NCBI GenBank assembly: GCA_031291305.1
Contig: JARLJH010000021.1
Location: 85,287-149,286, forward strand
Direction: 5' to 3'
From: Rhodoferax sp.
GTDB lineage: Bacteria; Pseudomonadota; Gammaproteobacteria; Burkholderiales; Burkholderiaceae_C
Length of the DNA: 64,000 nucleotides
Every line of letters begins with the position of its first letter. Positions within the stretch are counted from its first letter, which is position 1. Below are positions 12,744-30,079 of this stretch, one piece after another. A program made the position numbers and the translations under genes. Under the pieces are notes generated by a model, which was not told the origin of the DNA, did not search any database, and worked only from the letters and a program-made list of their open reading frames with translations.

Positions 12744-12772
12744 GAAGACGGTTCAACTCTTCAAAAGATGCA
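12744..12772 (-). promoter_or_regulatory. Candidate ECF-sigma promoter A (before DUF2892)
   Basis: On the minus strand it reads TGCATCTT, a 14-bp spacer, then CGTCTTC. The -10-like element is 61 nt from the DUF2892 ATG. It belongs to a set of five sites with invariant spacing in this island (see 19444, 21013, 27605, 30051). An A/T-rich tract (CAAAATTTTG) lies just upstream of the -35 element. Confidence 0.6.
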
Positions 12773-12803
12773 CAAAATTTTGATATTTATTCTGAAATGG
12801 TCT

Positions 12804-13226
12804 TTAGACACGTTTTCCCTCTGCATTGACCACAGGCTCACCGTCTTCCTTGGTGAATGCGCCCAACTGCGGATGGGGCAAGATGTCCAAAACGGCTTCA
12901 CTGGGACGACACAGCTTGGTGCCCAGCGGCGTGACAACGACAGGCCGATTCATCAGAATCGGGTGTTGAACCATGAAGTCGATCAGTTCAGCCTCTGTCC
13001 ACTTCGGGTCGCCCAGGCCGAGTTCATCGTACGGGGTACCCTTTTGACGCAGCAGTGCGCGAGCGCCGATGCCCATCGCCTGCACGAGCTGTTGCAGTCG
13101 CTCTTTGCCGGGCGGTGACTTGAGGTACTCAATGACGACGGGCTCTACCCCGCTGTTGAGGATCAGGGCCAGCGTATTGCGAGATGTCTCGCATGATGGG
13201 TTGTGATAGATGGTGATGTGGGTCAT
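12804..13226 (-). CDS. arsC: Glutaredoxin-dependent arsenate reductase ArsC
   Basis: This 140-aa protein is the glutaredoxin-coupled arsenate reductase that converts As(V) to As(III) in the cytoplasm. The catalytic Cys12 sits in HNPSCETSRNT, matching E. coli ArsC (NPACGTSRN). Arginines follow in ALLRQKGTPYDELGL and MNRPVVVTPLGTKLCRPSE, which bind arsenate in the family. Its ATG at 13226 overlaps the acr3 stop codon (ATGA), so reduction and export are translationally coupled. A second, unrelated ArsC of the phosphatase type is encoded two genes upstream. Confidence 0.95.
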   Translation of the reverse strand: MTHITIYHNPSCETSRNTLALILNSGVEPVVIEYLKSPPGKERLQQLVQAMGIGARALLRQKGTPYDELGLGDPKWTEAELIDFMVQHPILMNRPVVVTPLGTKLCRPSEAVLDILPHPQLGAFTKEDGEPVVNAEGKRV

Positions 13227-14314
13227 GGTCTTGCGCCTTGGGTGACTGCACCTTGCTCGTACCAACCCTTGCTGCGGTTGACGATGTTCACCACCAACAG
13301 CATCACCGGTACCTCGATCAGCACCCCGACCACGGTGGCCAGCGCCGCGCCCGAGTTGAAGCCAAACAGGCTGATGGCCGCCGCCACGGCGAGTTCAAAG
13401 AAGTTGCTGGCGCCAATCAGCGCTGATGGACAGGCGATATTGTGTTTTTCACCGACCGCTCGGTTGAGTAGGTAGGCCAAGCCCGAGTTGAAAAACACCT
13501 GGATCAAGATCGGCACCGCCAGCAGCGCAATGATCAGCGGCTGCTTCAGAATGGCTTCACCCTGAAACGCAAACAACAGCACCAGTGTGGCCAGCAGTGC
13601 GGTGATGGACCAGGGGCCGATTTTTTCCATCGCCGCATCAAAGGCGACCTGCCCCTTTTGTAGCAAGGATTTGCGCAGCAGTTGCGCCACAATCACCGGG
13701 ATCACGATGTACAGCGCCACCGAAATCAGCAGCGTGGCCCACGGCACGGTGATGCTCGATAACCCCAACAAAAACGCCACCAGCGGCGCAAAGGCCACCA
13801 CCATGATGCTGTCATTCAAAGCCACTTGCGACAGGGTGAACAGCGGGTCACCGCCGGTCAGGCGGCTCCAGACAAACACCATGGCCGTACAAGGGGCGGC
13901 GGCCAACAGAATCAGTCCGGCCACGTAACTGTCGATCTGGTCCGGTGGCAGCAGCGGTGCAAACCAGTGGCGGATGAACAGCCAGGCCAGCAAAGCCATG
14001 GAAAACGGTTTGACCAGCCAGTTCACAAACAAGGTCACGCCAATGCCTTTGACGTGTTGACGCACCTCGTGCAAGGCAGAGAAATCTACCTTGAGCAGCA
14101 TCGGGATGATCATCACCCAGATCAGCACACCCACGGGCAGGTTCACCTGGGCCACCTCCATGCGGCCAATCGCCTGGAACACACCTGGAAAGAACTGCCC
14201 CAAGGCGATACCAGCCACAATGCACAAGGCCACCCACACAGACAAGTAGCGCTCAAAGACGCTCATCGGCGCGCCTGCCGCGCGTTTGCCGGTTACTTCA
14301 CACTGAGCGCTCAT
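13223..14314 (-). CDS. acr3: Arsenite efflux permease Acr3
   Basis: This 363-aa transporter exports arsenite across the inner membrane. It has about ten hydrophobic segments and the hallmark Acr3 motif LAAAPCTAMVFVWS, whose cysteine is essential in characterised members, plus ALNDSIMVVAFAPLVAFLLG and a conserved GASNFFELAVA near the end. The N terminus has about 15 extra residues before the first helix; a downstream ATG (MSVFERYLS) is an alternative start. It lies 4 nt after the phosphatase-type arsC and overlaps the next arsC. It may work alone or with the ArsA ATPase encoded upstream. Confidence 0.95.
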   Translation of the reverse strand: MSAQCEVTGKRAAGAPMSVFERYLSVWVALCIVAGIALGQFFPGVFQAIGRMEVAQVNLPVGVLIWVMIIPMLLKVDFSALHEVRQHVKGIGVTLFVNWLVKPFSMALLAWLFIRHWFAPLLPPDQIDSYVAGLILLAAAPCTAMVFVWSRLTGGDPLFTLSQVALNDSIMVVAFAPLVAFLLGLSSITVPWATLLISVALYIVIPVIVAQLLRKSLLQKGQVAFDAAMEKIGPWSITALLATLVLLFAFQGEAILKQPLIIALLAVPILIQVFFNSGLAYLLNRAVGEKHNIACPSALIGASNFFELAVAAAISLFGFNSGAALATVVGVLIEVPVMLLVVNIVNRSKGWYEQGAVTQGARP

Positions 14315-14317
14315 CTT

Positions 14318-14818
14318 CTACTCCTTGGCGAGGTTGCGGGCTGTGGTTTGCAGCATGGTTTTTTCCAGCTTGTCGGCGGGCAAACTGATCAGAATATCCA
14401 AGCGACGTTTGAGCGCATGCAAGGTCTGGCGGAAAGCTTCCAGCTTTTGCGCGTCATTGCCGTCACCCACAGATGGATCGGGATAGCCCCAATGCGCGGT
14501 GGCGGGCTGGCCCGGCCAGTAGGGGCAGACTTCCCCGGCGGCGTTGTCACAGACCGTGATCACCAGATCCATGTGGGGTGCGTCTGCACGGCCAAAATCG
14601 TCCCAGCTTTTGCTGTGCAAACCTTCAATGGAGATCCCAGCCTGCTGCAACACCTGCAGGCCCAGCGGGTTGGGTTGCTGGTTGTCACGTGGGCTGCTGC
14701 CAGCGGAATAGGCCTTGAAACGGCCCCGTCCGATGTGGTTCAGAATGGCTTCGGCCAGGATGCTGCGCGCCGAGTTGTGGGTACACAGGAACAGGACATT
14801 GAGTACTTTGCTGGTCAT
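14318..14818 (-). CDS. arsC: Arsenate reductase, low-molecular-weight phosphatase type
   Basis: This 166-aa protein has the phosphatase-like P-loop CTHNSARS (Cys12 to Arg18), then ITVCDNAAGEVCPYWPG with the second and third redox cysteines, and WGYPDPS containing the general-acid aspartate. This is the thioredoxin- or mycothiol-type ArsC family, mechanistically unrelated to the glutaredoxin ArsC encoded at 12804-13226. Having both types means that either thiol system can reduce arsenate. It lies 29 nt downstream of arsA and 4 nt before acr3. The C-terminal 30 residues (LPADKLEKTMLQTTARNLAKE) extend beyond the core. Confidence 0.93.
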   Translation of the reverse strand: MTSKVLNVLFLCTHNSARSILAEAILNHIGRGRFKAYSAGSSPRDNQQPNPLGLQVLQQAGISIEGLHSKSWDDFGRADAPHMDLVITVCDNAAGEVCPYWPGQPATAHWGYPDPSVGDGNDAQKLEAFRQTLHALKRRLDILISLPADKLEKTMLQTTARNLAKE

Positions 14819-14846
14819 GGTTGATTTCCTTGATGGTGTTGGGTTT

Positions 14847-16640: not shown

Positions 16641-16678
16641 GGATGGTGTGATGGTTCTGGTGATGCGCCGATGTGATG

Positions 16679-17392: not shown

Positions 17393-17417
17393 ATCAAAAG
17401 CTCTTTCAAGGTTGGGG

Positions 17418-17753
17418 TTAAAGCATCGGCCCATTGAGCGGTGTGCAAATTTCCGGGCACTGCTCGGGATGACCCGCGCAGCACTCGGCAGTCAGGTAGG
17501 CAATCAGGTCATGCATCAAGGTCATGTTGGCGCGGTAGCGTTGAAAGCGCCCCTCCTGCACCACCGACACCAGTTGCGCATGGGTAAGGGTCTTGAGGTG
17601 AAACGACAGGTTGGTCGGCGGCACCTCCAAAGCGCTTCCAATTTCACCGGCGACCAAGCCTTGTGGCCCGGTTTTGACCAGCAGGCGGTAAATGTCGAGT
17701 CGCACGCCAGAGGCGAGGGATTCAAAAATGTTGGTGGCGAGTTGCTTGTCCAT
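17418..17753 (-). CDS. arsR: ArsR arsenite-responsive repressor
   Basis: This 111-aa winged-helix repressor of the SmtB/ArsR family contains NIFESLASGVRLDIYRLL and the recognition helix VPPTNLSFHLKTLTHAQLV. The usual ELCVCDL arsenite site in the DNA-binding helix is absent. Instead cysteines lie at the C terminus, in AECCAGHPEQCPEIC (Cys91, Cys92, Cys99, Cys103), like the Acidithiobacillus ferrooxidans type of ArsR. I chose the ATG at 17753; an upstream ATG would add five residues. It is the first gene of the long ars transcript (arsR-D-A-C2-acr3-C1 and possibly onward to ccdA). Confidence 0.93.
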   Translation of the reverse strand: MDKQLATNIFESLASGVRLDIYRLLVKTGPQGLVAGEIGSALEVPPTNLSFHLKTLTHAQLVSVVQEGRFQRYRANMTLMHDLIAYLTAECCAGHPEQCPEICTPLNGPML

Positions 17754-17757
17754 ATTG

Positions 17758-17777
17758 CAATGATACAACCATTATTG
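17758..17777. promoter_or_regulatory. Possible ArsR operator
   Basis: An imperfect inverted repeat, CAATGATA-CAAC-CATTATTG (6 of 8 matching), ends 5 nt before the arsR ATG in an AT-rich 62-bp gap. Location and symmetry fit autorepression, but the repeat is short. Confidence 0.35.
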
Positions 17778-17815
17778 AATTAATGAAGCAAAAAAGCTGC
17801 ATGGCACCGTGTCGA

Positions 17816-18382
17816 CTATTGAATCAGAAGCGCTCTACGGTGGCGCAGCGTTGCATCCAGCCAGATTTGCCAGTCGGCGGGCGCTGCGTTCAACACCGTG
17901 GCTTGGCCTGAAAAATGCAGCCATATGTCCAGCCGCGCTGGCGACACCATGGTCAACAAAGGCACGCCACTGGCCATGATGTCAAGCAGCTCAGCGGCGA
18001 AACCACCGCCCTCAGACTCCAGACCACCAAAGCGGTTGCAGATCACCAGGTCGGGCACATGAACCAGGGCATCACGCAACACCTGGCTGGCGCGGGCAAA
18101 GCCTTGGGTGTCCGCCCGACAGGCATTGGAGTCCTGACCCAGGGGCTGCGATACCAGATATTCATCTCCAGTGGTGATGTCTACTAGCACCATGTCGGCC
18201 TTGCAGCCGACGGCACCTGCGCTGCGGCGCATGGTCAAGCCACGCACATGCAAGCCCGCCTTCTGTTGTTGGATGGCAAAGGCTAGCAAGCGGGTGTCGC
18301 TGTCGCCGCTGCCATCGTCCAGTATGGCCGCCGCGAGGGGCGAGAAATCAGGGTTGTCGGTGAGGTCGCGTTGTGTTTGCAT
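17816..18382 (-). CDS. DUF2478 protein, predicted NTPase linked to molybdenum genes
   Basis: This 188-aa protein looks like the DUF2478 family: FSPLAAAILDDGSGDSDTRLLAFAIQQQKAGLHVRGL at the N terminus, the central VLVDITTGDEYLVSQPLGQDSNACRAD, and DLVICNRFGGLESEGGGF near residue 120, which resembles the KFG motif of NTPases of this group. Family members often lie next to molybdate transporters or molybdoenzymes. No catalytic lysine P-loop is visible at the N terminus. Its ATG at 18382 lies 41 nt after the CDF gene, so both may share promoter B. A part in molybdenum cofactor supply for AioA is inferred. Confidence 0.72.
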   Translation of the reverse strand: MQTQRDLTDNPDFSPLAAAILDDGSGDSDTRLLAFAIQQQKAGLHVRGLTMRRSAGAVGCKADMVLVDITTGDEYLVSQPLGQDSNACRADTQGFARASQVLRDALVHVPDLVICNRFGGLESEGGGFAAELLDIMASGVPLLTMVSPARLDIWLHFSGQATVLNAAPADWQIWLDATLRHRRALLIQ

Positions 18383-18422: not shown

Positions 18423-19406
18423 TTAGCCCTGGCACCCCAGCCCTGGTCGCAGCGCACAGCTTTGCGCATAGGCGAGCGTTTCAAGCTGCAGCGTGACGTG
18501 GCGGATTTCAAAATGCTCGTGCAGTTCTTCTTCCGCTTCGTGCAACAACGCGCCCGTGTCGGCCGTGTCGGTGACCAGATGTGCGGTGAGCGCAATGTGG
18601 CTGGTGCCCATGGCCCAGACATGCAGGTCATGCACGTCGGCCACACCGGGCAAACCCAGCAGCAACGTGCGCACGGCGGCCGGGTCCACACTGTCGGGCA
18701 CGCCGTCAAACAGCAGGTGCAGCGACTGCTTGAACAAATCCCAAGTGCCCCACACAATCACGCCCGCAATCAGCAGACTCACGACCGGGTCAAGCCAGAC
18801 CCAGCCCATCCACAGCGTGAGAGCCCCCGCCACCACCACGCCGGCGGAGACCAGTGCGTCGGCCGCCATGTGCAGAAAAGCACCGCGGATGTTCAAGTCG
18901 CTGTCCCCGCCGCGCATGAACAGCAAGGCGGTGGCGGTGTTGACCAGGATGCCAATGCCGGCCACGACCATGATGGTCACGCCCTGCGCCTGCAACTCCG
19001 CTTGCGGCGCGCTCAGGCGGCCAACAGCCTCCCAGGCCAGTGCACCCATGGCCACAAGCAATAGCAGGGCGTTGGCAAAAGCCGCCAGGATGGTGGCGCG
19101 CTTGAAGCCGTAGGTGTGGCGCGCGTTGGGGAGCAGCTTGACTGCCAGCGTGCCACCCCAGGCCAATAACAAGCCAGCCACGTCGCTCAGGTTGTGTCCG
19201 GCATCGGCCAGCAGCGCCAGCGAATTGATGCGCCAGCCGTAAAAAGCCTCGATGATCACAAAGCCGATGTTCAGCGCAATGCCAATCGCAAAGGCCTTGT
19301 TGAAGTTGGCAGGTGCGTGGCTGTGACCACGGCCGCCGCCGCCGCCGTCGTGGCTATGGTCGTGCTCATGCACGTGGGCGGGTGTGTGGTCGTGAGAATT
19401 GCTCAT
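18423..19406 (-). CDS. CDF-family divalent cation efflux protein
   Basis: This 327-aa protein has six hydrophobic helices of the cation diffusion facilitator family, with metal-site motifs HNLSD (in DAGHNLSDVAGLLL) and HMAAD (in AFLHMAADALVSAG), and a C-terminal cytoplasmic domain ending in HEHFEIRHVTLQLET. A histidine-rich N terminus (residues 3-30, with HVHEHDHSHD and a glycine run) likely binds zinc or a related metal. CzcD/ZitB-type zinc, cobalt or cadmium export is the expected role. The ATG at 19406 was chosen because the earlier frame lacks a plausible site. Candidate ECF promoter B ends 37 nt upstream. Confidence 0.93.
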   Translation of the reverse strand: MSNSHDHTPAHVHEHDHSHDGGGGGRGHSHAPANFNKAFAIGIALNIGFVIIEAFYGWRINSLALLADAGHNLSDVAGLLLAWGGTLAVKLLPNARHTYGFKRATILAAFANALLLLVAMGALAWEAVGRLSAPQAELQAQGVTIMVVAGIGILVNTATALLFMRGGDSDLNIRGAFLHMAADALVSAGVVVAGALTLWMGWVWLDPVVSLLIAGVIVWGTWDLFKQSLHLLFDGVPDSVDPAAVRTLLLGLPGVADVHDLHVWAMGTSHIALTAHLVTDTADTGALLHEAEEELHEHFEIRHVTLQLETLAYAQSCALRPGLGCQG

Positions 19407-19443: not shown

Positions 19444-19472
19444 GAAGACGCGCTGGCTTGGCAAAAGACGCA
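19444..19472 (-). promoter_or_regulatory. Candidate ECF-sigma promoter B (before the CDF gene)
   Basis: On the minus strand: TGCGTCTT, 14-bp spacer, CGTCTTC, with the -10-like element 37 nt from the CDF start codon. An A/T tract (ATAAAACTTG) adjoins the -35 element and runs into an intergenic repeat (19481-19548). Confidence 0.62.
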
Positions 19473-19551: not shown

Positions 19552-20292
19552 TCACCACAACCCCCAAGCCGTCTTGACCGCCACCGCAATCAGCACCAGC
19601 GCAATGACCCGTTTGAGCTGCTCGGAGCGCATTTTCTCGGTCGCCAGCCAGGCCCCCAGCGCCGCACCTGCTGCCGTGGCCAACGCCGTTGAGCCCATCA
19701 GCATCGGACCCAGATGGGCCAACTGAACATTAGCGAAAAAGCCTGACAACGATGCAAATATCACCACAAAAGACGCGCTGGCCGAAGCTCTCTTGGGCTC
19801 CAGACCCGCAGCGACCAGGGCCGGAACAATGATGTTGCCACCGCCGACACCCAGCAGCCCACCCACAAAACCGGCTGCAGCCCCCACGGGCAGCCCCAAC
19901 ATCAGCCCACCCTTGAGGGAAATCTGTGCAGTTCGGGGCGTGGGTCGGTAAAACAGCATCATCAGGCTGGCAAACACCAAAAAGGCCACAAAAAGCCAGA
20001 GCAACAGGCGACGGTCCAGCGCATGGCTCAACTGCACACCCAGCGGAGAGGCCAGCACAGCAATCACCAGCATCGGCAGCACCATGCGCCACTCCACCAA
20101 GCCCTTGCGGATAAAGGTGACCGAGGCAATCGACATGGCAATGGCGTTGAGCAGCAGCGCCGTGGCCATGGCCGCATGCAACTCGACACCCAGGGCAAGA
20201 AAAACCGGAATCAGTACAAAGGCAGCACCCACCCCGGCCATCGACAGGATGGTGGTCAGCACAAAAGTAACCACCACGGCAATGGCAATCAT
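19552..20292 (-). CDS. TauE/SafE-family membrane permease
   Basis: This 246-aa protein has about seven membrane segments and both TauE/SafE repeats, TTILSMAGVGAAFVLIPVFLALGV and GGLLGVGGGNIIVPALVAAGLEP, each with the glycine-rich pattern of the family. Substrates in characterised members are sulfite or organosulfonates. It stands alone between the CDF and FmdE genes, 83 nt after FmdE in the direction of transcription, and could be read from promoter C. It is only distantly similar to the TauE-type protein of the mod operon (7778-8581). Substrate unknown. Confidence 0.87.
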   Translation of the reverse strand: MIAIAVVVTFVLTTILSMAGVGAAFVLIPVFLALGVELHAAMATALLLNAIAMSIASVTFIRKGLVEWRMVLPMLVIAVLASPLGVQLSHALDRRLLLWLFVAFLVFASLMMLFYRPTPRTAQISLKGGLMLGLPVGAAAGFVGGLLGVGGGNIIVPALVAAGLEPKRASASASFVVIFASLSGFFANVQLAHLGPMLMGSTALATAAGAALGAWLATEKMRSEQLKRVIALVLIAVAVKTAWGLW

Positions 20293-20375: not shown

Positions 20376-20972
20376 TCAATACGTCGAACACGGAATACAC
20401 ACTGGCTGACCGTCCTTGGTGCGTACGTAACGCTCAAAAACGTATTCACCGCAAGCCGTGCATTTCATCTTGTTGAAAGAGCCTTTGACCGGTGTGTACT
20501 TGAAATCCGGTTTCAGCTCCATCTTGAACAGCGTGTCGTCTGACTGTTCGTAAACCCATTTCAAGATCTCATCACGCACCGCTTCCGGGATTTCGGAAGG
20601 TTCCATGCCTTTTTTGCGATAGGCAAAAAACTCAAATTTGCCCATGGCATCAATGAAATCAGGCTGCAACGAGAAGCGGATCGCGCCCTTCTTGGGATGA
20701 TAGAAGGTAGCGGCCAGCTTGCCGTAGAACAACTTGGACATCAGCACCTTGCCGTAAGTCGCACCGGTGGCAGCCTGGATGCCGTCCATCAGGCAGCTTT
20801 GCGGATGCCCTTCACCAAGTTCGGTGAAGACAAAGAACCCATGGTCTTTTTCGCGCTCAACACCGAGCCGATCCATGGCCAATCGGCCCATGCGATAGCC
20901 CAAAGGCATAAACGGGCAACGATGCCCATGAAACTCAAAAGCCCATTCGGGCGGAATGTAGGGGGTTGTCAT
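20376..20972 (-). CDS. FmdE-family protein
   Basis: This 198-aa protein resembles FmdE (the family of formylmethanofuran dehydrogenase subunit E): FEFHGHRCPFMPLGYRMGRLAMDRLG at the N terminus with the conserved HGHxCP motif, ELGEGHPQSCLMDGIQAATGATYGK in the middle, and a C-terminal zinc ribbon CTACGEYVFERYV...CIPC. FmdE-like proteins occur near molybdo- and tungsto-enzymes and in arsenic gene clusters, but no reaction is established. The start at 20972 follows GGAG by 6 nt; two upstream methionines (20984, 20978) are alternatives. Candidate ECF promoter C lies 40 nt upstream. Confidence 0.86.
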   Translation of the reverse strand: MTTPYIPPEWAFEFHGHRCPFMPLGYRMGRLAMDRLGVEREKDHGFFVFTELGEGHPQSCLMDGIQAATGATYGKVLMSKLFYGKLAATFYHPKKGAIRFSLQPDFIDAMGKFEFFAYRKKGMEPSEIPEAVRDEILKWVYEQSDDTLFKMELKPDFKYTPVKGSFNKMKCTACGEYVFERYVRTKDGQPVCIPCSTY

Positions 20973-21012: not shown

Positions 21013-21041
21013 GAAGACGCATCATGGCATCAAAAGATGCA
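21013..21041 (-). promoter_or_regulatory. Candidate ECF-sigma promoter C (before FmdE)
   Basis: On the minus strand: TGCATCTT, 14-bp spacer, CGTCTTC, with the -10-like element 40 nt from the FmdE start. The upstream A/T tract seen at the other four sites is weaker here, so this is the least certain of the set. Confidence 0.52.
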
Positions 21042-21170: not shown

Positions 21171-21890
21171 TCACATGCCGAAGACCTGATGCCGCCGATG
21201 TTCCAGTTGGGCTGCCAGCGCCGCATCCGTCAGCCCGTGAAGCTGTTCAAACACAATGGGCGCAAAGTCTACAAATTGACGCACGACCACTGGATCAAAG
21301 TGCGAACCAGATTCACGCGCCAGCACAGCCAGGCCATCGGGCAAGGTCATGGGTGTTTTGTAGGGGCGTTTTGACAGCAGGGCATCCAATACGTCGATCA
21401 CGGTAAACAGACGTGCGGCCAGCGGAATTTGCTCACCACGCAACCCGTTCGGGTAGCCGGTGCCGTCAAACTTTTCATGGTGGTGTAGCACGACGGGTAC
21501 CGCGTCATCAAACCAGGGCATGCCAGCCAGCAGCGGGTGTTGCTGCATCACCGCTTGCTCGGCAGCATTCAGCGGCCCTTGCTTGAGCAGCAGGGTATCT
21601 GAGATGCCGATTTTGCCGACATCGTGCAAAAAGGCGCCTTTCATCAGGCCCCTGAGCGTCACGCGGTCAAGCCCCCAGGCCTCGCCAAACAGGCTGGCCA
21701 TGTAGGCCACCCGCAGGTTGTGCGCACCCGTCTCATGGTCGCGCAGCGTGGCGGCATGCCCGAGTGACTGGGCGATGCGGAAGTTGTACGCCATGTCTTG
21801 GCGCTGTCGACAGCCCCGTTCGCGCTGCCAGAGCACCGTGGGTACTGACGCAGCCACAGTGCCTAGAAACAGGGCAGTTTCAATCAACAT
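21171..21890 (-). CDS. HD-GYP domain phosphodiesterase
   Basis: This 239-aa protein has an N-terminal hydrophobic segment (ALFLGTVAASVPTVLW) and an HD-GYP domain with HDHETGAHNLRVA-type helices, GAFLHDVGKIGISDTLLLKQG, HHHEKFDGTGYPNGLRGEQIPLAARLF and DVLDALLSKRPYK. HD-GYP proteins hydrolyse cyclic di-GMP; the HD, HDxGK and HHExxDGxGYP metal and substrate motifs all look intact. There is no receiver or sensor domain apart from the short anchor. It lies between the RND operon and FmdE, with gaps of more than 100 bp on both sides, so it is probably transcribed separately. Its link to arsenic is unknown. Confidence 0.92.
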   Translation of the reverse strand: MLIETALFLGTVAASVPTVLWQRERGCRQRQDMAYNFRIAQSLGHAATLRDHETGAHNLRVAYMASLFGEAWGLDRVTLRGLMKGAFLHDVGKIGISDTLLLKQGPLNAAEQAVMQQHPLLAGMPWFDDAVPVVLHHHEKFDGTGYPNGLRGEQIPLAARLFTVIDVLDALLSKRPYKTPMTLPDGLAVLARESGSHFDPVVVRQFVDFAPIVFEQLHGLTDAALAAQLEHRRHQVFGM

Positions 21891-21993: not shown

Positions 21994-24900
21994 CTATTCT
22001 TTTTGAATAACAGCTTGTTTCCCCGACACCCACACATAAAACAGCGGCAGGTAAAACAAGCTCATGAAGGTGCCCACCAGTAGGCCACCAATGGCGGCAT
22101 CGGCCAGCGGCGAGAGCCTCTCCATGCCAATGGCATGCTCCAGTGCAATCGGAATCATGCCAGCGATGGTAGCCAGCGCCGTCATCAGAATCGGGCGGTA
22201 GCGCAGCCGCACTGATCCCTCTGCCGCTTCGCGGGCACTTTGTCCCTCCTTGCGCCGCTCCTGAATGAAATCAACCATCAGAATCGAATTTTTGATGATG
22301 ATGGCAAACAAAAGCACCACACCGAGAATGGCCGACAGCGCCAAGGCCTTGCCAAAAGCCAACAAGCCCCACATGGCCCCAATCACCGACAGCGGCAGAA
22401 TCAGAACGGATAGCAGTCCCAGGCCAACGCTGCGGTAGGCGGGCACCAACACCGCAAATAGCAACAACACGCCCAGCCCCAAGCCAACGGCCATGCGCTT
22501 GCCCGATTCTTTGGACGAGGCGAAGTCTCCCTCATCGGTGAATGTCACGCCCTGGGGCACCACCCTGGTCACCGCAGCCACAGCCTCATCACTGAGCATA
22601 CTGATGGGTTTTGTGTTGCGGTAGGCAAACACGTCCAGCGCAAAGTGCACACCATCGGTGGTCAAAATGGCTGTGCCATTTTGTCGTTGCAGGTGGGCCA
22701 CTTGGCCCAGACTCACCACTTGTCCATTGGCCAACTCAATAGGCAACAGCATCAAGGTCTGTGGATTACTGCGGTAGGCCTCAGCAAAATAGGTGCGTAC
22801 CGGCAAGGCGCCGACACTGGGCAGTTTGCTCAGGCTGGCAACAGGCGCACCCTTGAGCGGTAATTGACCCACCACCTGATCGGGTGTGGCTCCCAGTAGG
22901 CGAAGCTTGTCTTCGTCCAGCACCAACACGCTTTCTTCACTGTAGCGGTCCCAGGTGGTCGATACTGTGGTGACACCCGATACGGTTTTCAGTGCTGCCT
23001 TGACATCTTCAGCGGTGCGCGAGAGCAACTTCCAATCTTCGCTGACCAGTCGGATGTCAATGGGAGCCTTGATAGTCGACAACGCGGTGGCACCACCATC
23101 AAACACATCAGCGCTGACTATGCCAGGGATATTGGCCAGCTTCTGGCGCAGTTCAGACTCTATCTGCCAACTGCTCTGCTCACGGTGTAATCGATCTACA
23201 TAGGTGAGGGTAAAAGTTGCCTCTCCGGGCAATTGGCCCGAGCCCATGGACAGCACGCCAGCTTCGGAGCCGATAAACAGGGTGCTGCGTTCAATGCGTT
23301 TGTCGTCCTTCAAGACGGCTTCAAAAGCCTTCAGGCGTTGCTCTGCCTCAGCCACCGGCACATTGCCACCGAACTTGACGTGAACCTTGACGACGCCGGT
23401 GTCCATCGGTGGCATGGCATCGCGCCCCACCAGAGGCAAGACGACACGCACACTGATGGCCAGCAACAGCACCGCTGGCAGGACCAGTAGCGTACGGCGC
23501 AACCAGCCCCCCTTGAAGGCAAAGCTCAGCATAGCGACGTACACGCCCGCGCCTGGGGCCAGCGTACGCTGGTAAAAACGCTCCATGGCACGCTCCCAGC
23601 GATTCTTGGGTGGCAAGCCGTTGCGATACCAATACGCTGACACCTGAGGGATGAAGGTAATGGACAAAAAGTAGGATACAACGGTGGCAATCAGCACCGG
23701 TCGAACCAGGTGAGAAAAGATGGCTTCAGGAAAACCACCGATGTACATCAGCGGCGCGATGACCACCACTGTGGCCAAGGTGCCCACCAGAATGGGCGAC
23801 AGCACTTCTTCGGTTCCGCGGCGGATGGCGATATCCACATCTTCCCTGAGTTCCTCCAGATGCCGCTCGATGTTCTCCAGCACCACCACCGCATCGTCGA
23901 CCAGCATTCCCAGGGCCAGGATGATGCCAGTCATGACGGTAATGTTGAGTTCTTTGCCCATCAGCCACAGAACAGCCAGGGTAAGCAGAAAGACCAGCGG
24001 GATACTGACCAGAGATGTCACCACCGCACGCCAATTGGAGAGGAAAAACAACATCACCAAAGCGACAAAGATGATCGCATCGCGAAGTGCATCGATCATG
24101 TTGGCGTTGGAAGTCTGAATCAATTCTTCTTGTGTATCAGCTACCGTGAACTCGACATTGGCATAACGTACCCTCATGTCTTTGAGTGCGTGGTTGGCAT
24201 CATTGATCGCACCTTGTACGCTTTCCCCAGGAGCACGTTGTACGGCCATGGCGATGGCTTTCTTGCCATTGCCATGGAAGGCGCTGTAGCGCTCTGCCTG
24301 ACTCAGGTTGACCTGCGCCACGTCGCCCAGGGTCAGCCCGTTGGCCAGCGCCAGACGGCGTAGAGCCTCCACGCTGATGCGTTCGCCATACACCGTCAGG
24401 GTGCTGAATGCATTACCGCCTTGGGTGATGCCCACCGGATAATCGCGCCCGATTTTGGCAATGAACTCCTGCAACTGCGCTTGGCTGACGTGATAGCTGA
24501 GGAGCTTGAGCGGGTCGAAGTCAATGCGTACGGCGGGTTCGTGGCCCCCAAAAATTTCGACGTTGGCGATGTGTCCTTGCGTCAAAAGCGCGGTGCGCAA
24601 ATCGTTCTCGGCGATCAGTCGGATCTGGCTCAAGGAAACATCGCTTCCTGGCTTGGGTGACAACGACAGCACCAGCACCGGGCTGGTAAAGGCCCCTACT
24701 GCATACACCCCGGAGGGGGCTGCTTCCGGTGGCAGCTTGCCACGCGCCCTTGAGAGCGCGTTGTTCACATCCAGCATGGCCGTGTTGAGGTCTTTGCCGT
24801 ACTCGAACTCGGCCTTGACGATGGAAACCTCGTTTTTATTGGTGCTTTGCACGTCACGGATGCCCGCAAGCGCGTAGATTTCCTGCTCAATTGGGCGCGA

Positions 24901-25086
24901 CACCTTCTGCGCCACCGACTGCGCCGCAGCGCCGGGCAATTGGGTGATCACCGTGACCTGTGAACGCTCCACGTCAGGGTACATGTTGCGCGGCAGGTTG
25001 ATGTACCCGATAACGCCCATGATGGATCCGATGAACAGGATCATCGCCAGTAGCAGCGGGCGCGTGTAGAAATAGCGAAACAGCAT
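21994..25086 (-). CDS. RND efflux pump inner-membrane subunit
   Basis: This 1030-aa RND transporter has the AcrB/HAE layout: an N-terminal helix (LLLAMILFIGSIMGVIGYINLP), two large periplasmic loops, and the proton-relay pair D-D in GMLVDDAVVVLENIERHLEE, with later helices VALVMLFFLSNW and GVVLLFAIIIKNSILMVDFI. It uses proton motive force to expel substrates with the adaptor and outer-membrane channel encoded immediately upstream. It lacks an obvious heavy-metal (CzcA/HME) signature, so organic or drug-like substrates are likely. The gap to the adaptor gene is 2 nt. A DNA-level link to arsenic exists only through the shared candidate promoter D. Confidence 0.93.
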   Translation of the reverse strand: MLFRYFYTRPLLLAMILFIGSIMGVIGYINLPRNMYPDVERSQVTVITQLPGAAAQSVAQKVSRPIEQEIYALAGIRDVQSTNKNEVSIVKAEFEYGKDLNTAMLDVNNALSRARGKLPPEAAPSGVYAVGAFTSPVLVLSLSPKPGSDVSLSQIRLIAENDLRTALLTQGHIANVEIFGGHEPAVRIDFDPLKLLSYHVSQAQLQEFIAKIGRDYPVGITQGGNAFSTLTVYGERISVEALRRLALANGLTLGDVAQVNLSQAERYSAFHGNGKKAIAMAVQRAPGESVQGAINDANHALKDMRVRYANVEFTVADTQEELIQTSNANMIDALRDAIIFVALVMLFFLSNWRAVVTSLVSIPLVFLLTLAVLWLMGKELNITVMTGIILALGMLVDDAVVVLENIERHLEELREDVDIAIRRGTEEVLSPILVGTLATVVVIAPLMYIGGFPEAIFSHLVRPVLIATVVSYFLSITFIPQVSAYWYRNGLPPKNRWERAMERFYQRTLAPGAGVYVAMLSFAFKGGWLRRTLLVLPAVLLLAISVRVVLPLVGRDAMPPMDTGVVKVHVKFGGNVPVAEAEQRLKAFEAVLKDDKRIERSTLFIGSEAGVLSMGSGQLPGEATFTLTYVDRLHREQSSWQIESELRQKLANIPGIVSADVFDGGATALSTIKAPIDIRLVSEDWKLLSRTAEDVKAALKTVSGVTTVSTTWDRYSEESVLVLDEDKLRLLGATPDQVVGQLPLKGAPVASLSKLPSVGALPVRTYFAEAYRSNPQTLMLLPIELANGQVVSLGQVAHLQRQNGTAILTTDGVHFALDVFAYRNTKPISMLSDEAVAAVTRVVPQGVTFTDEGDFASSKESGKRMAVGLGLGVLLLFAVLVPAYRSVGLGLLSVLILPLSVIGAMWGLLAFGKALALSAILGVVLLFAIIIKNSILMVDFIQERRKEGQSAREAAEGSVRLRYRPILMTALATIAGMIPIALEHAIGMERLSPLADAAIGGLLVGTFMSLFYLPLFYVWVSGKQAVIQKE

Positions 25087-25088
25087 GG

Positions 25089-26276
25089 TCAGTGTCCCTT
25101 TGCCAACTGAAAGGGAACACCCAGGCTCAGGCGGGTGAGCACGTCGGCGCCACCGCAGGCGACGGTCTGGCCTCTCAGGGATGCGTCCAGACTGACACTG
25201 CCTTCGCTACCGGCAGCTTGCAGGCTGACCTTGAGTGGTTTGGCTGGCCCGTCCTTTGGCAGTTGGAATACGGTGGCGGTATGCCCGTCGTTACCCAGCA
25301 GGCAGGCATCGGGCAGCAACACGCCTTCGGCCTTGAAAGTGAGCAGCTGAACGCTGACTCGCGTGCCTGGGGTCAGGCCATTAGCGCGGGCTTCATATCG
25401 GTGCATGCCTTGGGCAGTCGCTTCGGGCCATGGTTTAAGCGATAGCTCTTGGCCATTGAGAAGCAACGCCTGCGGCATCACGCCTTCGGGCAGCGTCACC
25501 AGTAAGCGTTGCTCGCGCAGGCCGACCAGGCGAATTAGCAGCTTGCCGGGCGTGGCCAGGTCCCCCATTTGTACCGGTCGCGCTGCCACCAGCGCGTCAA
25601 ACGGTGCACGCATGTCGGCGTAACCCAGGTTGATCTGCGCTGCTTGCACGCCGCTTTTGGCAGCGCTCAAACCGGACTGGTAGGCGTTGAGTGCACCACG
25701 CGTGCCAGCCAGTCGTGCCAAGGCGCTGGCCTGGTTGGTCTGCTCGGCTTGCAGTTGTTCCAGCGACACGCCTTTGATCTCATACAAGGTTTTGTCCCGT
25801 GCAGTGCGTTCATTGGCAGCCCGCGCAGCGACATCTGCGGCTGCCAGATCGGCTTGCAACGAGGCCTGCTGCTGCTCTATACGGGCCAGGTCCGCCTGCG
25901 CGCGTTGCAGGTTGGCCAGAGCATCTGCCGTGTCGATTTGCACCAGCAGATCTCCCTTTTTGACGCTGTCACCCTCCGAGAAGCGTAGCGCTGTCACATA
26001 GCCGGTCAGGCGGCTGGCGATGTTGGCTTCTTGCACGGCTTGCACTTCGGCCGCCAGTGGCAGGGTGAGGGTGACCGGGCCGCGCGTCAGCGCCAGCGGC
26101 TGCACCGTCACGGGGGTTGCGGCGGGCAGCGTCTCGGCGGCCAGACGCGATTTTTGTTTGACCACTGCCAGCACTGCGCCAGCAACAAGCACCAGTACTA
26201 CGATGGCGATCAGGGTTTTTTTGGATTTGGGTTTGGACATGGCGTTAACCATAGGGGAGGCGTGGGTGGTGTTCAT
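25089..26276 (-). CDS. RND efflux periplasmic adaptor protein
   Basis: This 395-aa membrane fusion protein has an N-terminal anchor (KKTLIAIVVLVLVAGAVLAVV), a lipoyl half-motif (VQEANIASRLTGYVTALRFSEGDSVKKGDLLVQID), a long alpha-hairpin with heptad-like helices (residues about 120-220) and a beta-barrel part (AGLNAYQSG through INLGYADMRAPFDALVAARPV). It bridges the RND pump and the TolC-like channel. The ATG at 26276 overlaps the stop of the outer-membrane gene (ATGA), and the RND gene follows after 2 nt. Confidence 0.92.
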   Translation of the reverse strand: MNTTHASPMVNAMSKPKSKKTLIAIVVLVLVAGAVLAVVKQKSRLAAETLPAATPVTVQPLALTRGPVTLTLPLAAEVQAVQEANIASRLTGYVTALRFSEGDSVKKGDLLVQIDTADALANLQRAQADLARIEQQQASLQADLAAADVAARAANERTARDKTLYEIKGVSLEQLQAEQTNQASALARLAGTRGALNAYQSGLSAAKSGVQAAQINLGYADMRAPFDALVAARPVQMGDLATPGKLLIRLVGLREQRLLVTLPEGVMPQALLLNGQELSLKPWPEATAQGMHRYEARANGLTPGTRVSVQLLTFKAEGVLLPDACLLGNDGHTATVFQLPKDGPAKPLKVSLQAAGSEGSVSLDASLRGQTVACGGADVLTRLSLGVPFQLAKGH

Positions 26277-27598
26277 GGCTTTTGCGGGTTCAAAGTGGCA
26301 ATGTATTGGCTGGGATCGGTGCCGGCCAGCACCTGGGCTTGCGACCACGCGTTCAGGCTGCGCCAGCGGGCATCGGCCAGACGGTATTGGGCATCGAGCA
26401 GGTCACGGCGTTGGCGCAACAGGTTTTCCAGGGTTTGTGAGCCCAACTCCCATTTTTTTTCTTCCACGGCCACCACTTCGGTGCGGTAAGTGATCTCTTT
26501 TTCCAGCGATAGGGCATCGGCCTTGGCGCTGGTGTATGCCGAGTGCAGGCTTTGCCACTGGCGGCGGGCCGTTTGCCGACTGGCAGCAACATCTTCCTCT
26601 GCCGCCACTGCCTGGGCAGCATCAGCATTGGCACGTTTGAAGCTGCCTATGTCCAAGGGCACGTTCAGACGCAAGGCAATGGCGCGGGTGGTCATTTCGC
26701 TGCCGCCGCCATGGTTGCTGAAGACATCGGCACCCACGCTCAGGGCTGGCAGCAAGTTGCGGTTGGTCTCACGGCTGCTGGCCTGTAAGCTGAGCAAGCG
26801 AGCTTGCGCGATGCGCACTGCCAGGGTTTGGTCAGGTTCAACGTCTTGCCAAGCCGGTGTGGCAACGATCTGCGTGCCGACCTCTGGGTCCTGACCGCTG
26901 GCATCGTGCAAGTCGGCGCGGGTGTCGCCCAATTGCCCTTGCAATCGGGCCTCTTCGGCCAGCAGACGGGCCAGGTCACTTTCGGCCAACGACAAGTCCA
27001 CACCAGCTGTGCGCCCCAAATCCACTTCCTGGCGGATGCGTGCGGCCGAGACCTCAACGCGCTCACGCTGGGTTTGCAGACCCTGCACTTGCAATTGCAG
27101 CGCCTGCTTACGCGCCAAGGCGCTGGCGGCCTGGTTCAGACGTAACAACTGTTCCTGGCGTGCCAACAACTCCAGCGCTTTGCGGTTGCCCTGGGCCTTT
27201 TCGCGTGAGGCGGCAATCACGCCAAACAAGTCAATCGGCAGGCTGTAGCTGATGCCGACGCGGCTGATGTTGTCGTCCAGAATGGCCGGGGTGGGCTGAC
27301 CCGGGTAAAAGTAACCCACCACATGTTGGCCCTCGTAGCGGGTCTGGTCCAGCAGCAGGTTGCCGCGGCCAAAATAGCGTGCTTGTGCGGCAGATTCATC
27401 CTGCTCGGCGGCTTGCAACTGGGCTTGGCGGGAGCGCACCGCCGGGTGGTCCAGCGCGGCTTGCAGAACATCACCCAGCGGGTTGGCGTGAAGGGATAGC
27501 GGCAGAGTCAACGAGATGAACAGCCCAAGAAGCGCGGGTGTGCGACATAACGCGGTGATGCGTGAACGCCGCGTGGTTAGGAAGGTTGATTTGTGCAT
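26273..27598 (-). CDS. TolC-family outer-membrane efflux protein
   Basis: This 441-aa outer-membrane channel has a signal sequence (TPALLGLFISLTLPLSLHANPLG) and two TolC/OEP-like repeats rich in long helices (AALDHPAVRSRQAQLQAAEQDESAAQARYF; RKQALQLQVQGLQTQRERVEV). It is the first gene of a three-gene operon with adaptor and pump. The ATG at 27598 lies only 6 nt after the -10-like element of candidate promoter D, so the mRNA would be leaderless if that promoter is right; no better start codon is visible before the signal sequence. Confidence 0.9.
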   Translation of the reverse strand: MHKSTFLTTRRSRITALCRTPALLGLFISLTLPLSLHANPLGDVLQAALDHPAVRSRQAQLQAAEQDESAAQARYFGRGNLLLDQTRYEGQHVVGYFYPGQPTPAILDDNISRVGISYSLPIDLFGVIAASREKAQGNRKALELLARQEQLLRLNQAASALARKQALQLQVQGLQTQRERVEVSAARIRQEVDLGRTAGVDLSLAESDLARLLAEEARLQGQLGDTRADLHDASGQDPEVGTQIVATPAWQDVEPDQTLAVRIAQARLLSLQASSRETNRNLLPALSVGADVFSNHGGGSEMTTRAIALRLNVPLDIGSFKRANADAAQAVAAEEDVAASRQTARRQWQSLHSAYTSAKADALSLEKEITYRTEVVAVEEKKWELGSQTLENLLRQRRDLLDAQYRLADARWRSLNAWSQAQVLAGTDPSQYIATLNPQKP

Positions 27599-27604
27599 GC
27601 TGAT

Positions 27605-27633
27605 GAAGACGCGAAAAGCGGCCAGAAGACGCA
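27605..27633 (-). promoter_or_regulatory. Candidate ECF-sigma promoter D (before the RND operon)
   Basis: On the minus strand: TGCGTCTT, 14-bp spacer, CGTCTTC, then six bases and the ATG of the TolC-like gene. The upstream tract ATCAAAAATTC matches the A/T tracts of the other sites. The 6-nt distance to the start codon is the same as at promoter E. Confidence 0.62.
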
Positions 27634-27723
27634 GAATTTTTGATCTGAATACGGGATGTGAAAAGCCCGCAAGCCCAGAACAACAAGCTTACGGCACCAA
27701 CTTATTTAAAGCTTTTTAAGGGA

Positions 27724-27957
27724 TCAAGCGGCCAGCCATTGTTCAATCTTGTCACGGCTGGGGATACCCCCCGCGTGCACCACCTTGCCATTGATGACCA
27801 CGCCGGGCGTGCTCATCACGCCGTAGCCCATGATGGCGCGCAGATCTTCGACCTTGCTCAGGGTGATGTCCACCCCCTTGGCTTTGGCGACCTGATCAAT
27901 CAGGGCAATGGTGTTTTTGCAGTTGGCACAGCCGGTGCCGAGTACTTTGATGTCCAT
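27724..27957 (-). CDS. Small thioredoxin-like (redox-active disulfide) protein
   Basis: This 77-aa protein has a minimal thioredoxin fold: MDIKVLGTGCANCKNTIALIDQV with the active site CANC, a cis-proline VMSTPGVVING and the last helix SRDKIEQWLAA. It belongs to the TM0996/MTH895-like family (redox-active disulfide protein 2), which is regularly found beside YraQ/ArsP-type permeases, as here two genes upstream. It is cytoplasmic, since no signal is present. A thiol reductant for the permease or for arsenic compounds is inferred. The gene lies 68 nt after the metallo-beta-lactamase gene, with an intergenic repeat in the gap (27977-28017). Confidence 0.88.
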   Translation of the reverse strand: MDIKVLGTGCANCKNTIALIDQVAKAKGVDITLSKVEDLRAIMGYGVMSTPGVVINGKVVHAGGIPSRDKIEQWLAA

Positions 27958-28025
27958 GGGTTTCTTTCAATAAAAGTAGCAATAAATTCAGTCTCTATAG
28001 GGGCTAGATGGGCATTTGATGTCCA

Positions 28026-28952
28026 CTATTCGCGCTCCATCTCCAGGTAGGTTTGGTTGGCGAGTTGGGGAATCCACACGTCGGCGTGTTTCAGTTTGGC
28101 GAAGGGTGTTGCATCAAAGCTTTTCACCGCTGCACTGATGTCCATCCCGTTGTCCACGGCTTTTTCCATGTGCGCGCGCAGCGCCAGCAGCAGATCACGC
28201 GTTTGCGCCTGCGCGGTGGCAAGGTCGGTCACCTGACCATGGCCGGGCACGATGACTTGGGGTTTGATCTGGTCAATCACGGCAAAGCTCTCCAGCCAGT
28301 TCTTGCTATTACTTACCTCATGCATGCCCAAGACACGGTCAACATAGACCGTATCACCGCTGAACAACACGTTTTTTTGCGGCAGCCAGACCAAGGTGTC
28401 ACCCGGCGTGTGACCACCGTGCTGGTGTTTGAGTTCAATCACGGTGCCACCTAGGTCGAGGGTGGTGTTAGCCTCTTTGACAAAACGTGTTGGCAAGGTG
28501 GGTTGCGTCCCGTCTAGCCGTTCTTTCAACACCTTGAGGCCTTGCATGTGCTCATTGGCACGGGCTTTCATGTCGGCTTGCGCATCAGCATGGGCCAGTG
28601 TCTCAATACCCTTTTCTGTGAAATAGCCGTTACCCAGCCAGCGATGGTCCTGGTCGCCGGAATTGATCACCAGTTTGAGTGGCTGAGAGGTCACTTTTTT
28701 GATCGCTTCGTGAATCTTGGCGGCCACTTGGTAGCTCGAACCGCTGTCAATCAGCACTGCACCTGCCGGGGTGACGATCAAACCTATGTTGGCGTTCAGG
28801 CCTTCGTTGTCGTAGGTGCGGCCTTCAATATCGCCAATGTAGGCATACACACCGTCGGCCACGGGTTTGAAGGTGACCTCCACCGCCCAGGTGGGCAGGG
28901 TGAGCAGACTGGAAATCAGCATCGTCGCTAGGGTAGGCAGGTGTTTTGTCAT
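28026..28952 (-). CDS. Metallo-beta-lactamase-fold exported protein with atypical metal motif
   Basis: This 308-aa protein has a signal peptide (MLISSLLTLPTWA) and an MBL fold: VYAYIGDIEGRTYDNEG, NIGLIVTPAGAVLIDSGSSY, HQHGGHTPGDTLVWLPQKNVLFSGDTVY and VIVPGHGQVTDL. The first metal motif, normally HxHxDH, reads NSGDQDHRWLGN, so the two leading histidines are replaced by Gly and Gln. The later ligands (the histidine of GGHTPGD, the aspartate of FSGD and PGHG) are kept. It resembles the SoxH / quinoprotein-relay-system subgroup, whose chemistry is unclear. It lies 45 nt after the permease gene. Confidence 0.82.
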   Translation of the reverse strand: MTKHLPTLATMLISSLLTLPTWAVEVTFKPVADGVYAYIGDIEGRTYDNEGLNANIGLIVTPAGAVLIDSGSSYQVAAKIHEAIKKVTSQPLKLVINSGDQDHRWLGNGYFTEKGIETLAHADAQADMKARANEHMQGLKVLKERLDGTQPTLPTRFVKEANTTLDLGGTVIELKHQHGGHTPGDTLVWLPQKNVLFSGDTVYVDRVLGMHEVSNSKNWLESFAVIDQIKPQVIVPGHGQVTDLATAQAQTRDLLLALRAHMEKAVDNGMDISAAVKSFDATPFAKLKHADVWIPQLANQTYLEMERE

Positions 28953-28997
28953 GAAGTCTCTTGTTATAAAAGTAGGTCAGCACACAAGCACAATGGT

Positions 28998-30044
28998 TTA
29001 AAGCACGGCGTTAAACACAAAGCCCACCAGTAGGATGCCGGAAGCCACCACGCCCACAAAGGTGGCGATCAGCCGCACTTTGAGCACCTTGCGCAAGATG
29101 ATCATCTCGGGCAAAGAGAGGGCAATCACACTCATCATGAAGGCCAGCACGGTGCCCAAAGCGGCTCCCTTGGCCAACAGTGCCTGTACGATCGGGATCA
29201 CGCCTGCGGCGTTGGTGTACATCGGCACGCCGATGATCACGGCCAACGGCACCGACCACCAAGCTTCTTTCCCCATGAAGCTGGCCATGAAGTCTTCAGG
29301 GACGTAACCGTGAATCACGGCTCCGAGCGCAATGCCGCCCAGAATGTAGGGCCAGACCTTGCCAACAATCTCGCGCACTGCAGAAAAACCACCTTGAATG
29401 CGATCTGCCAAGGTGGCACCGGCATCTTCAAATTGAGCAGCGGTCTTGGGCATGTCACGCACCCAGTCTTCCAGGTAGGCTTCCATCTTCAGGCGGCCAA
29501 TGATCCAGCCCGCCACAATGGCCACACTCAGCCCCAAGCTCAAATACAGCAGTGCGACTTTCCAGCCAAACATGCCAAACAGCAAGGTCAACGCCACTTC
29601 ATTCACCATGGGTGCTGAGATCAGGAAGGAGAACGTCACACCCAGTGGCACGCCCGCCTGCACAAAACCAATGAACAAAGGCACGGCCGAGCAGGAACAA
29701 AACGGGGTGACGATGCCTAGAGATGCGGCCATCACATTGGCCACGCCTTCGGTTTTGCCTGCCAGCATGGCCCGCGTACGTTCGGGAGTGAAGTAGCTGT
29801 TGATCATGCCCATGACAAACACCACGCCTGTGAGCAGCATCAGCACCTTGGGGGTGTCGTAGAAGAAGAATTGCAGCGCACCGCCCAGATGGGTGTCACG
29901 ATCCACCGGTAGGGCTGCGACCAAGGACTCTGCGGCTGGATCAAGCGTTTGGTACAGCGCCAACCAAGCGACTGTGGCCAGAATCAGAAATAAAATAGGC
30001 TGCCGCGAGGGCCAGGATTTGAGCGGTGCGGTAAGTGTCGTCAT
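28998..30044 (-). CDS. ArsP/YraQ-family permease (DUF318)
   Basis: This 348-aa integral membrane protein has about eight to nine helices. The family motif TPFCSCSAVPLFIGFVQAGVPLG, with paired cysteines near residue 115, is the hallmark of DUF318/YraQ permeases. One branch, ArsP, exports trivalent organoarsenicals, and the cysteines bind the arsenical there. A second conserved stretch is GVPMYTNAAGVIPIVQALLAKG. The ATG at 30044 lies 6 nt after candidate promoter E, suggesting a leaderless transcript that continues into the MBL and thioredoxin genes. Export of methylarsenite or a related compound is a plausible role, but substrate assignment needs evidence beyond the motif. Confidence 0.88.
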   Translation of the reverse strand: MTTLTAPLKSWPSRQPILFLILATVAWLALYQTLDPAAESLVAALPVDRDTHLGGALQFFFYDTPKVLMLLTGVVFVMGMINSYFTPERTRAMLAGKTEGVANVMAASLGIVTPFCSCSAVPLFIGFVQAGVPLGVTFSFLISAPMVNEVALTLLFGMFGWKVALLYLSLGLSVAIVAGWIIGRLKMEAYLEDWVRDMPKTAAQFEDAGATLADRIQGGFSAVREIVGKVWPYILGGIALGAVIHGYVPEDFMASFMGKEAWWSVPLAVIIGVPMYTNAAGVIPIVQALLAKGAALGTVLAFMMSVIALSLPEMIILRKVLKVRLIATFVGVVASGILLVGFVFNAVL

Positions 30045-30050
30045 ACCAGT

Positions 30051-30079
30051 GAAGACGGATCAACTCAGTGAAAGACGCA
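30051..30079 (-). promoter_or_regulatory. Candidate ECF-sigma promoter E (before the permease unit)
   Basis: On the minus strand: TGCGTCTT, 14-bp spacer, CGTCTTC, then six bases and the permease ATG. It is preceded by CAAAAAGCT and an intergenic repeat (30092-30158). The ECF sigma gene starts 669 nt upstream and is transcribed toward this site. Confidence 0.65.

Follow-up and report, generated by a model that had tools for sequence, protein, structure and literature searches.

What reads the five matching promoter-like sites in the arsenic island of a Rhodoferax sp., and which genes would they serve? The island lies in a stretch of 64,000 nucleotides (nt), here called the window (positions 85,287 to 149,286 of contig JARLJH010000021.1, assembly GCA_031291305.1), and an initial annotation of this DNA had proposed that the five sites, all on the minus strand, are used by the one extracytoplasmic function (ECF) sigma factor encoded there, at 30168–30713. 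Our analyses argue that they are promoters of this SigZ-like ECF sigma factor, which, itself produced behind the arsenic regulators, would run a further tier of genes for arsenic defence and thiol handling; from the comparison of sequences we give this reading a probability of about 0.87. What the computations establish is the motif, together with how well it is conserved and how closely it goes with the sigma factor; its use as a promoter, induction by arsenic, leaderless starts and sensing by cysteines are inferred.

Five sites in the window and a sixth in the genome

A scan of the window with TGCRTCTT-N14-CGTCTTC (the 15-base perfect form, minus strand) returned all five sites where they had been placed, each with 0 mismatches and, in order of increasing coordinate, 61, 37, 40, 6 and 6 nt from a start codon, as the annotated limit of 61 nt requires. 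When up to 3 mismatches were allowed the window held 7 matches against a shuffle mean of 2.6, both additional matches having 3 mismatches, and a relaxed pattern (13 specified bases, 13–15 nt spacer) found the same five only (shuffle mean 0.05; 0/100 shuffles reach 5). The genome, of 4,984,719 bases, contains six perfect copies, five in the window and one elsewhere, and no copy at 1 mismatch; from the base composition of the window, ~0.014 exact matches would be expected over its length. At 2 mismatches there are 32 matches, with 11 in the backwards control at ≤2 mismatches (an approximately threefold excess), and the pattern with a 13–15 nt spacer yields the identical six sites genome-wide, every spacer being 14 nt (control, 2). 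A chance origin of the sites was rejected, the shuffle, backwards-control and base-composition expectations being far below what is observed.

The sixth site is on contig C21, 6 nt ahead of the ATG of a gene whose product shares 89% identity with the island permease, and is followed there by the genes for the permease, a metallo-beta-lactamase-fold (MBL) protein, a thioredoxin and a sigma factor 81% identical to the island one. All six sites are located at the two loci encoding this SigZ-like sigma type, and not in unrelated DNA. To call the regulon island-wide goes somewhat too far: within the window the arsenite oxidase genes, the ars core operon and the DNA ahead of the sigma gene give no match to the pattern, and the sixth site is off the island.

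Could the sites be alike by descent, having been copied recently along with DNA segments? Their packing within ~17 kb would suit this explanation, but the spacers and flanks differ among the copies, in agreement with what had been argued from the spacers at the outset, and among relatives both boxes persist as the spacer diverges. The chance of this explanation seems to us next to negligible, and recent duplication was rejected because of the diverged spacers.

Motif and sigma factor across related genomes

In a sample of 399 genomes of the family, 39 were scored as carrying the sigma factor (match at E ≤ 1e-25), and two −35 variants of the motif were searched, the A form, as in the window, and the B form, TGCATCCT-N14-CGTCTTC. 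The exact A motif occurs in 21 genomes and the exact B motif in 14, with none having both. The A motif is present in 15/39 genomes with the sigma factor versus 6/360 without it (Fisher 1.6e-12), the B motif in 11/39 versus 3/360 (5.6e-10), and either of them in 26/39 versus 9/360 (9e-24). A site is found no more than 5 kb from the sigma gene in 14/15 A genomes and 10/11 B genomes, the remaining two having site and sigma gene on different contigs; A motifs pair with sigma factors at least 58% identical to that of the window, and B motifs with those at most 53% identical. When 16 doubtful genomes were searched with a more sensitive profile, sigma fragments were recovered in G371, G329 and G324, and the rest gave matches at the generic ECF level or none. 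G371, which bears the B motif and had been counted as lacking the sigma factor, has two sigma pieces at or near contig ends, and the fragments of G371 and G329 lie at contig ends or in masked DNA; reassigning these two genomes, by arithmetic only, gives 27/41 versus 8/358.

This distribution bears on whether the sites could be ECF promoters read by another sigma factor of the genome. There are 12 Sigma70 region-2 genes in it, among them 30168–30713, whose domain is the only one of its kind in the window, as had been claimed for the island, and one more on contig C21 at ~21 kb from the sixth site. However, across genomes the presence of the motif and its −35 class follow the SigZ-like sigma type, and only the two SigZ-like genes adjoin sites; on the SigZ model two genes of the genome reach 157.4 and 156.0 bits, and the next best 75.0. 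We regard a different sigma factor as scarcely probable.

Permease genes provided a control. At E ≤ 1e-60 there are 48 copies in 43/399 genomes, and all 48 were inspected. Among copies at least 58% identical, 40/45 carry a site at ≤2 mismatches; three of the site-less copies belong to the sigma-less genomes G058, G151 and G296, with best matches at 4–6 mismatches, and the other two to G329, where the upstream DNA is masked, and to G380, which by eye has a version with a 13-nt spacer. The three copies at 46–49% identity have no site. Upstream of the permease of G296 (locus L157) an ArsR-box-like ATTCAATAATAGTTGAATCAA, read by eye, stands in place of the site, which suggests a change of regulator.

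We also aligned 62 distinct permease-upstream sites from the retrieved loci (6 further copies had none). These were chosen by the pattern with ≤2 mismatches, so that part of the conservation in the box columns comes from the selection itself (48/62 match the wider pattern exactly), and 12/15 motif columns show a single base in at least 58 of the 62 sequences, two show A/G and T/C choices and one has T in 50, while the spacer varies and carries low information. The −35-like octamer first described is present, and in relatives the box proves longer, TGCRTCYTTT, with the two added T's in 62/62 and 55/62. In 44/62 sites (43 ATG, 1 GTG) the start codon is exactly 6 nt past the site. On the 56-row sigma tree, with 54 tips scored, the seventh base of the −35 box (T/C) changed 4 times, and TGCG-type sites are restricted to one 38-row subclade; the −35 box thus differs with sigma lineage, and the spacing and the −10 are retained.

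An alternative is that the motif is no sigma promoter at all, and that a transcription factor binds it as a direct repeat (CGTCTT...CGTCTT, 20 bp apart). CGTCTT does occur within both halves of the G-form sites, but sites of the other sigma lineage have TGCATCCT as their first half, with the repeat broken and the geometry retained; the second half has, in the 44 sites just mentioned, the place of a −10 and not of an activator site; and the presence of the site tracks the sigma gene across genomes. We judge such a binding site very unlikely, and it was rejected because the repeat is lost with the geometry kept.

Confinement to the sigma loci, co-occurrence in the family, the permease control and the change of the −35 box with lineage all favour the original proposal that the island sigma factor uses these sites. 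Several observations weigh against it. Exact A or B motifs are lacking in 13/39 genomes that have the sigma factor (11 of the 13 have a version of the wider pattern with ≤2 mismatches at the permease, and G380 its 13-nt-spacer version); the partial sigma match of G324 comes with no site, and the further permease copy of this genome is also site-less; and in eight motif-bearing genomes the profile search found no such sigma factor. The differences between the A and B lineages in −35 class and sigma-4 are confounded with descent. Among sigma loci of at least 8 kb, the permease is present in 52/66 and one of twelve arsenic reference genes in only 32/66, and the link with arsenic is therefore not universal at that range. 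Finally, an AlphaFold2 model of the sigma factor (56-row alignment; mean predicted local distance difference test score 83.9) has a low global score, with a predicted template modelling score of 0.45, and the window has no site ahead of the sigma gene.

Autoregulation was considered and rejected on the last point. Elsewhere, one of the canonical SigZ loci (L241) does have a site ahead of its sigma gene, and in L021 and L084 the sigma gene comes last, behind the permease site.

As for the eight genomes with a motif and without the sigma factor, G083, G113, G207 and G279 have similar-looking sites, maybe a repeated element (backwards control 0, 4, 26 and 0, respectively), the sites of G320 and G347 are nearly identical and may be coding, and the remaining two are G219 and G275. 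A sequence like TGCGTCTTYTGCGTAACCTTTGCGTCTTC, with 31 matches in G207 (backwards control 26) and found also in G113, mimics the motif and may be a dispersed repeat.

The sigma factor, its cysteines and its predicted targets

The sigma factor matches PF04542 with 46.7 bits (cut-off 24), PF08281 with 43.5 (25.7) and TIGR02937 with 53.4 (42.9), and ECF sigma factors are its top matches in fold and sequence (6dv9_F); its nearest named relatives are in metagenome-assembled genomes of Comamonadaceae and Rhodoferax. Its best NCBIfam match is the SigZ equivalog TIGR02959, and since the score of 157.7 bits is below the cut-off of 168.65 we call it SigZ-like; on the other SigZ model, NF007215 (PRK09637), it scores 133.2 bits, under the cut-off of 212, and three other five-cysteine members reach 157.6, 147.4 and 161.9 bits on TIGR02959. 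It shares with the SigZ family a similar size, cysteines ahead of sigma-4 and where the C-terminal tail begins, and promoter-like sites of the type TGCRTCYTTT..CGTCT, which adjoin canonical members. Unlike these, it falls under both curated cut-offs, has cysteines 6, 51 and 120, which are absent from 9 canonical members, and has as its main predicted target a permease/thiol set instead of arsM.

Among 56 such sigma factors C101 and C160 are conserved in 56, C120 in 55, and C6 and C51 in 54 each. The last two are missing together in the same two related proteins (L069, L074), which is weak evidence that these residues may share one site. Two sigma genes, at 10001–10605 of L108 and 10001–10212 of L109, seem interrupted or fragmentary, the L109 copy lying directly behind aioXSR-like genes, and L239 (genome G522, 9077–10014) has a tandem pair of different SigZ-like genes, 54% and 33% identical to that of the window.

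We propose that arsenite would turn on an operon ending in the sigma gene, and that production of the sigma factor would relay the signal. In the window the sigma gene follows genes for a phosphonate-type binding protein, a histidine kinase and a sigma-54 activator, an aioXSR-like arrangement from which we infer that the sigma factor is probably made when arsenite is present; the same order of regulators and then sigma is seen in L088, L109, L111, L115 and L119. Elsewhere the gene is found behind ars genes (arsC in L114, arsA in L121, acr3 in L129), and in many loci the frame upstream of it matches none of the reference genes used. RNA polymerase with this sigma factor would then recognise TGCRTCYTTT as −35 and, beyond the spacer, CGTCTTC as −10, and would transcribe five units: the ArsP-like permease with the MBL protein and thioredoxin; TolC with the membrane-fusion protein (MFP) and RND permease; FmdE-TauE; CDF-DUF2478; and the YgaP-like transmembrane protein with the adjoining open reading frame (ORF), thioredoxin and CcdA. 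An ECF promoter whose −10 stands 6 nt from the ATG places the transcription start at or next to the ATG. As two of the sites have this spacing, leaderless or nearly leaderless transcripts are predicted, and those of the permease and TolC genes would probably begin with the A of the ATG or a base beside it.

The sigma factor may in addition be a direct sensor of trivalent arsenic or of the thiol state, through its five nearly invariant cysteines. There are precedents for such a sensor: CorE and CorE2 of Myxococcus (formerly ECF44, now ECF238) are reported to respond to metal through their own cysteines, with no anti-sigma factor (PMC8999054), and OrbS of Burkholderia cenocepacia, an iron-starvation ECF sigma factor under a metal regulator, is described as having an on-board cysteine sensor (PMC9023288). 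The window sigma factor differs from CorE and CorE2 in that its sequence has no CXC and a single cysteine in the C-terminal tail. OrbS has an inhibitory C-terminal cysteine cluster, whereas the window protein has its cysteines distributed over sigma-2 and sigma-4, with arsenic as the presumed signal.

A different explanation accepts that the sigma factor reads the sites and lets a distant anti-sigma factor, in place of its own production or cysteines, set its activity. Membrane-bound anti-sigma factors are given as the commonest mechanism in a review (PMC8999054), which speaks for this explanation. Against it, the stretches taken from seven plasmid records show no annotated anti-sigma gene, in a gene table that is incomplete and includes hypothetical proteins, and the sigma gene often has aio or ars genes upstream of it, on its own strand. 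We think this unlikely, and prefer control through production of the sigma factor and perhaps its cysteines.

Gene order, in our view, lends strong independent support to a single regulon. On the Sulfuricella plasmid pSCD an ars operon and the sigma gene are followed by one site (1 mismatch) and TolC-MFP-RND-Trx-CcdA-OsmC-TauE-FmdE (Trx, thioredoxin), and the window splits this type of set into TolC-MFP-RND, FmdE-TauE and Trx-CcdA, each with its own site; a single run in one replicon and three site-led units in the other argue that these genes form one regulon. Other genes led by a site include CDF in L082 (1 mismatch), rhodanese, by Pfam, at 5 nt in L096 and L111, and thioredoxin in L096. With thioredoxin, rhodanese, OsmC and CcdA genes turning up repeatedly, thiol chemistry is a likely theme of the regulon. 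The permease (28998–30044) is assigned to the ArsP_1 family by its PF03773 score, and may export organoarsenicals.

Control of arsenite oxidase (aox) transcription by AoxR and sigma-54 has been described in Herminiimonas (PMC2848651), and a kinase and a sigma-54 activator of this kind are present in the window, as is aioBA; the available part of that report mentions no downstream ECF layer, unlike the one proposed here. A literature search of limited depth found no link of SigZ or any ECF factor to arsenic and no described regulon for a SigZ-like sigma factor. Our analysis would supply this sigma factor with a predicted promoter, a list of targets and a candidate for its signal, and would place in arsenic islands a second level of regulation in addition to ArsR and AioXSR with sigma-54; if the cysteines bind arsenic, one protein would be both metalloid sensor and sigma factor.

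Table 1. Genes and promoter-like sites of the regulator-sigma block and the five site-led units (window coordinates)
Feature	Position	Strand	Remarks
AioX-like (by gene order) periplasmic phosphonate-type binding protein	33630..34499	-	PF12974
AioS-like (by gene order) sensor histidine kinase	32135..33622	-	HisKA, HATPase_c
AioR-like (by gene order) sigma-54-dependent response regulator	30809..32128	-	Sigma54_activat, Response_reg; directly upstream of sigma gene, gap 95 nt
SigZ-like ECF sigma factor	30168..30713	-	181 aa; Cys 6, 51, 101, 120, 160; Sigma70_r2, Sigma70_r4_2 (Pfam)
Promoter-like site TGCGTCTT-N14-CGTCTTC	30051..30079	-	6 nt ahead of ArsP-like permease start; conserved in relatives
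ArsP-like permease	28998..30044	-	PF03773 255 bits (gathering cut-off 32.3); NCBIfam SaoE and SO_0444 models below cut-off
MBL-fold protein	28026..28952	-	SoxH/quinoprotein-relay-like, under those models' cut-offs
MTH895/ArsE-family thioredoxin-like protein	27724..27957	-	TIGR00412 95.9 bits (cut-off 62); Thioredoxin_3
Promoter-like site	27605..27633	-	6 nt ahead of TolC-like gene
TolC-like outer-membrane efflux protein	26273..27598	-	ORF; 56% identical to TolC-family gene beside sigma in Sulfuricella pSCD; no NCBIfam match at 1e-15
MFP, start uncertain	25089..26348	-	ORF; 64% identical to L224 counterpart
RND efflux permease	21994..25086	-	NCBIfam RND models all below cut-off; 81% identical to L224 gene
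HD-domain protein	21171..21890	-	PF13487; behind RND gene, possible rather than established member of that unit
Promoter-like site	21013..21041	-	40 nt ahead of FmdE
FmdE-family protein	20376..20972	-	PF02663 91.3 bits; sub-threshold C4 zinc-finger-like tail
TauE/SafE-family transporter	19552..20292	-	PF01925; behind FmdE
Promoter-like site	19444..19472	-	37 nt ahead of CDF transporter
CDF-family cation transporter	18423..19406	-	TIGR01297, PF01545
DUF2478 protein	17816..18382	-	PF10649
Promoter-like site	12744..12772	-	61 nt ahead of YgaP-like protein
YgaP-like transmembrane protein (DUF2892-type)	12452..12682	-	PF11127
Conserved protein of unknown family	12006..12446	-	61% and 71% identical genes in L082 and L096; no NCBIfam or Pfam match (12006-12443)
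Thioredoxin-like protein	11475..11987	-	PF00085
CcdA/DsbD-type transmembrane protein	10789..11478	-	PF02683

Neighbouring genes and SigZ loci beyond the family

The arsenite oxidase genes (TIGR02693, TIGR02694) adjoin the regulator-sigma block in the window. At 34669–34683 on the plus strand TGGCATGACTGTTGC, by eye a sigma-54-like −24/−12 element, overlaps the first ATG of the aioB ORF (34673), and the true start of aioB is therefore probably a later in-frame ATG near 34721. Beside the island, 9379–10623 (minus strand) holds frames that we take to be ModE-like and ModA-like, and which would suit the need of arsenite oxidase for molybdenum.

Does the promoter geometry extend to other SigZ-type sigma factors? 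At class level, 22/360 genomes (our own included) have a match to the sigma profile at E ≤ 1e-28. As we read their translations, 12 of the other 21 retain all five cysteines, and 9 are of the canonical type, in which C101 and C160 (as CC) are kept and C6, C51 and C120 are lacking. Sites of the form TGCRTCYTTT-N12-CGTCT precede arsM at 4/9 canonical SigZ loci (L240, L241, L243, L245), a small sample found by similarity to the window sigma factor; one of the four arsM genes was scored and, with 372.8 bits, passes the NCBI cut-off of 263, and the sigma factors of L245 and L213 exceed the SigZ cut-offs.

Plasmids also carry relatives of the sigma gene, in 1,349/72,556 records at E ≤ 1e-20, of which 1,047 are from Klebsiella, and in 4/5 enterobacterial plasmid records inspected the gene is beside ars genes. 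One plasmid type (L225, L227) has the order sigma, TGCATCCTTTTCTGTCAAACAGCGTCTTC, permease and thioredoxin, and 108 plasmid records match its stretch from site to permease. In another (L254–L256) the genes run arsR-arsH-sigma-arsD, arsA being the next annotated gene in L255 and L256, and the sigma factor lacks C120. The strict motif has no match at ≤1 mismatch in L254–L256; by eye, and as weaker evidence, a conserved variant, CGCATCTT-N14-CGTTTAC, with the same spacing, is found between sigma and arsD in 3/3.

SigZ-type sigma factors as a whole might be overlooked arsenic regulators, with a shared promoter geometry that would drive arsM in canonical SigZ, ArsP-like permeases in the five-cysteine branch and probably arsDA in widespread enterobacterial plasmids, and with the sigma factor itself sensing trivalent arsenicals through conserved cysteines. 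We offer this wider reading tentatively, and consider it doubtful.

In these Klebsiella and Salmonella plasmids (L254, L255, L256) the ECF sigma factor encoded between arsH and the arsD-family gene is annotated merely as sigma-70 family. A study of a plasmid transcriptome includes a hypothetical protein between arsH and arsD (PMC6286996), which may be the product of this same sigma gene.

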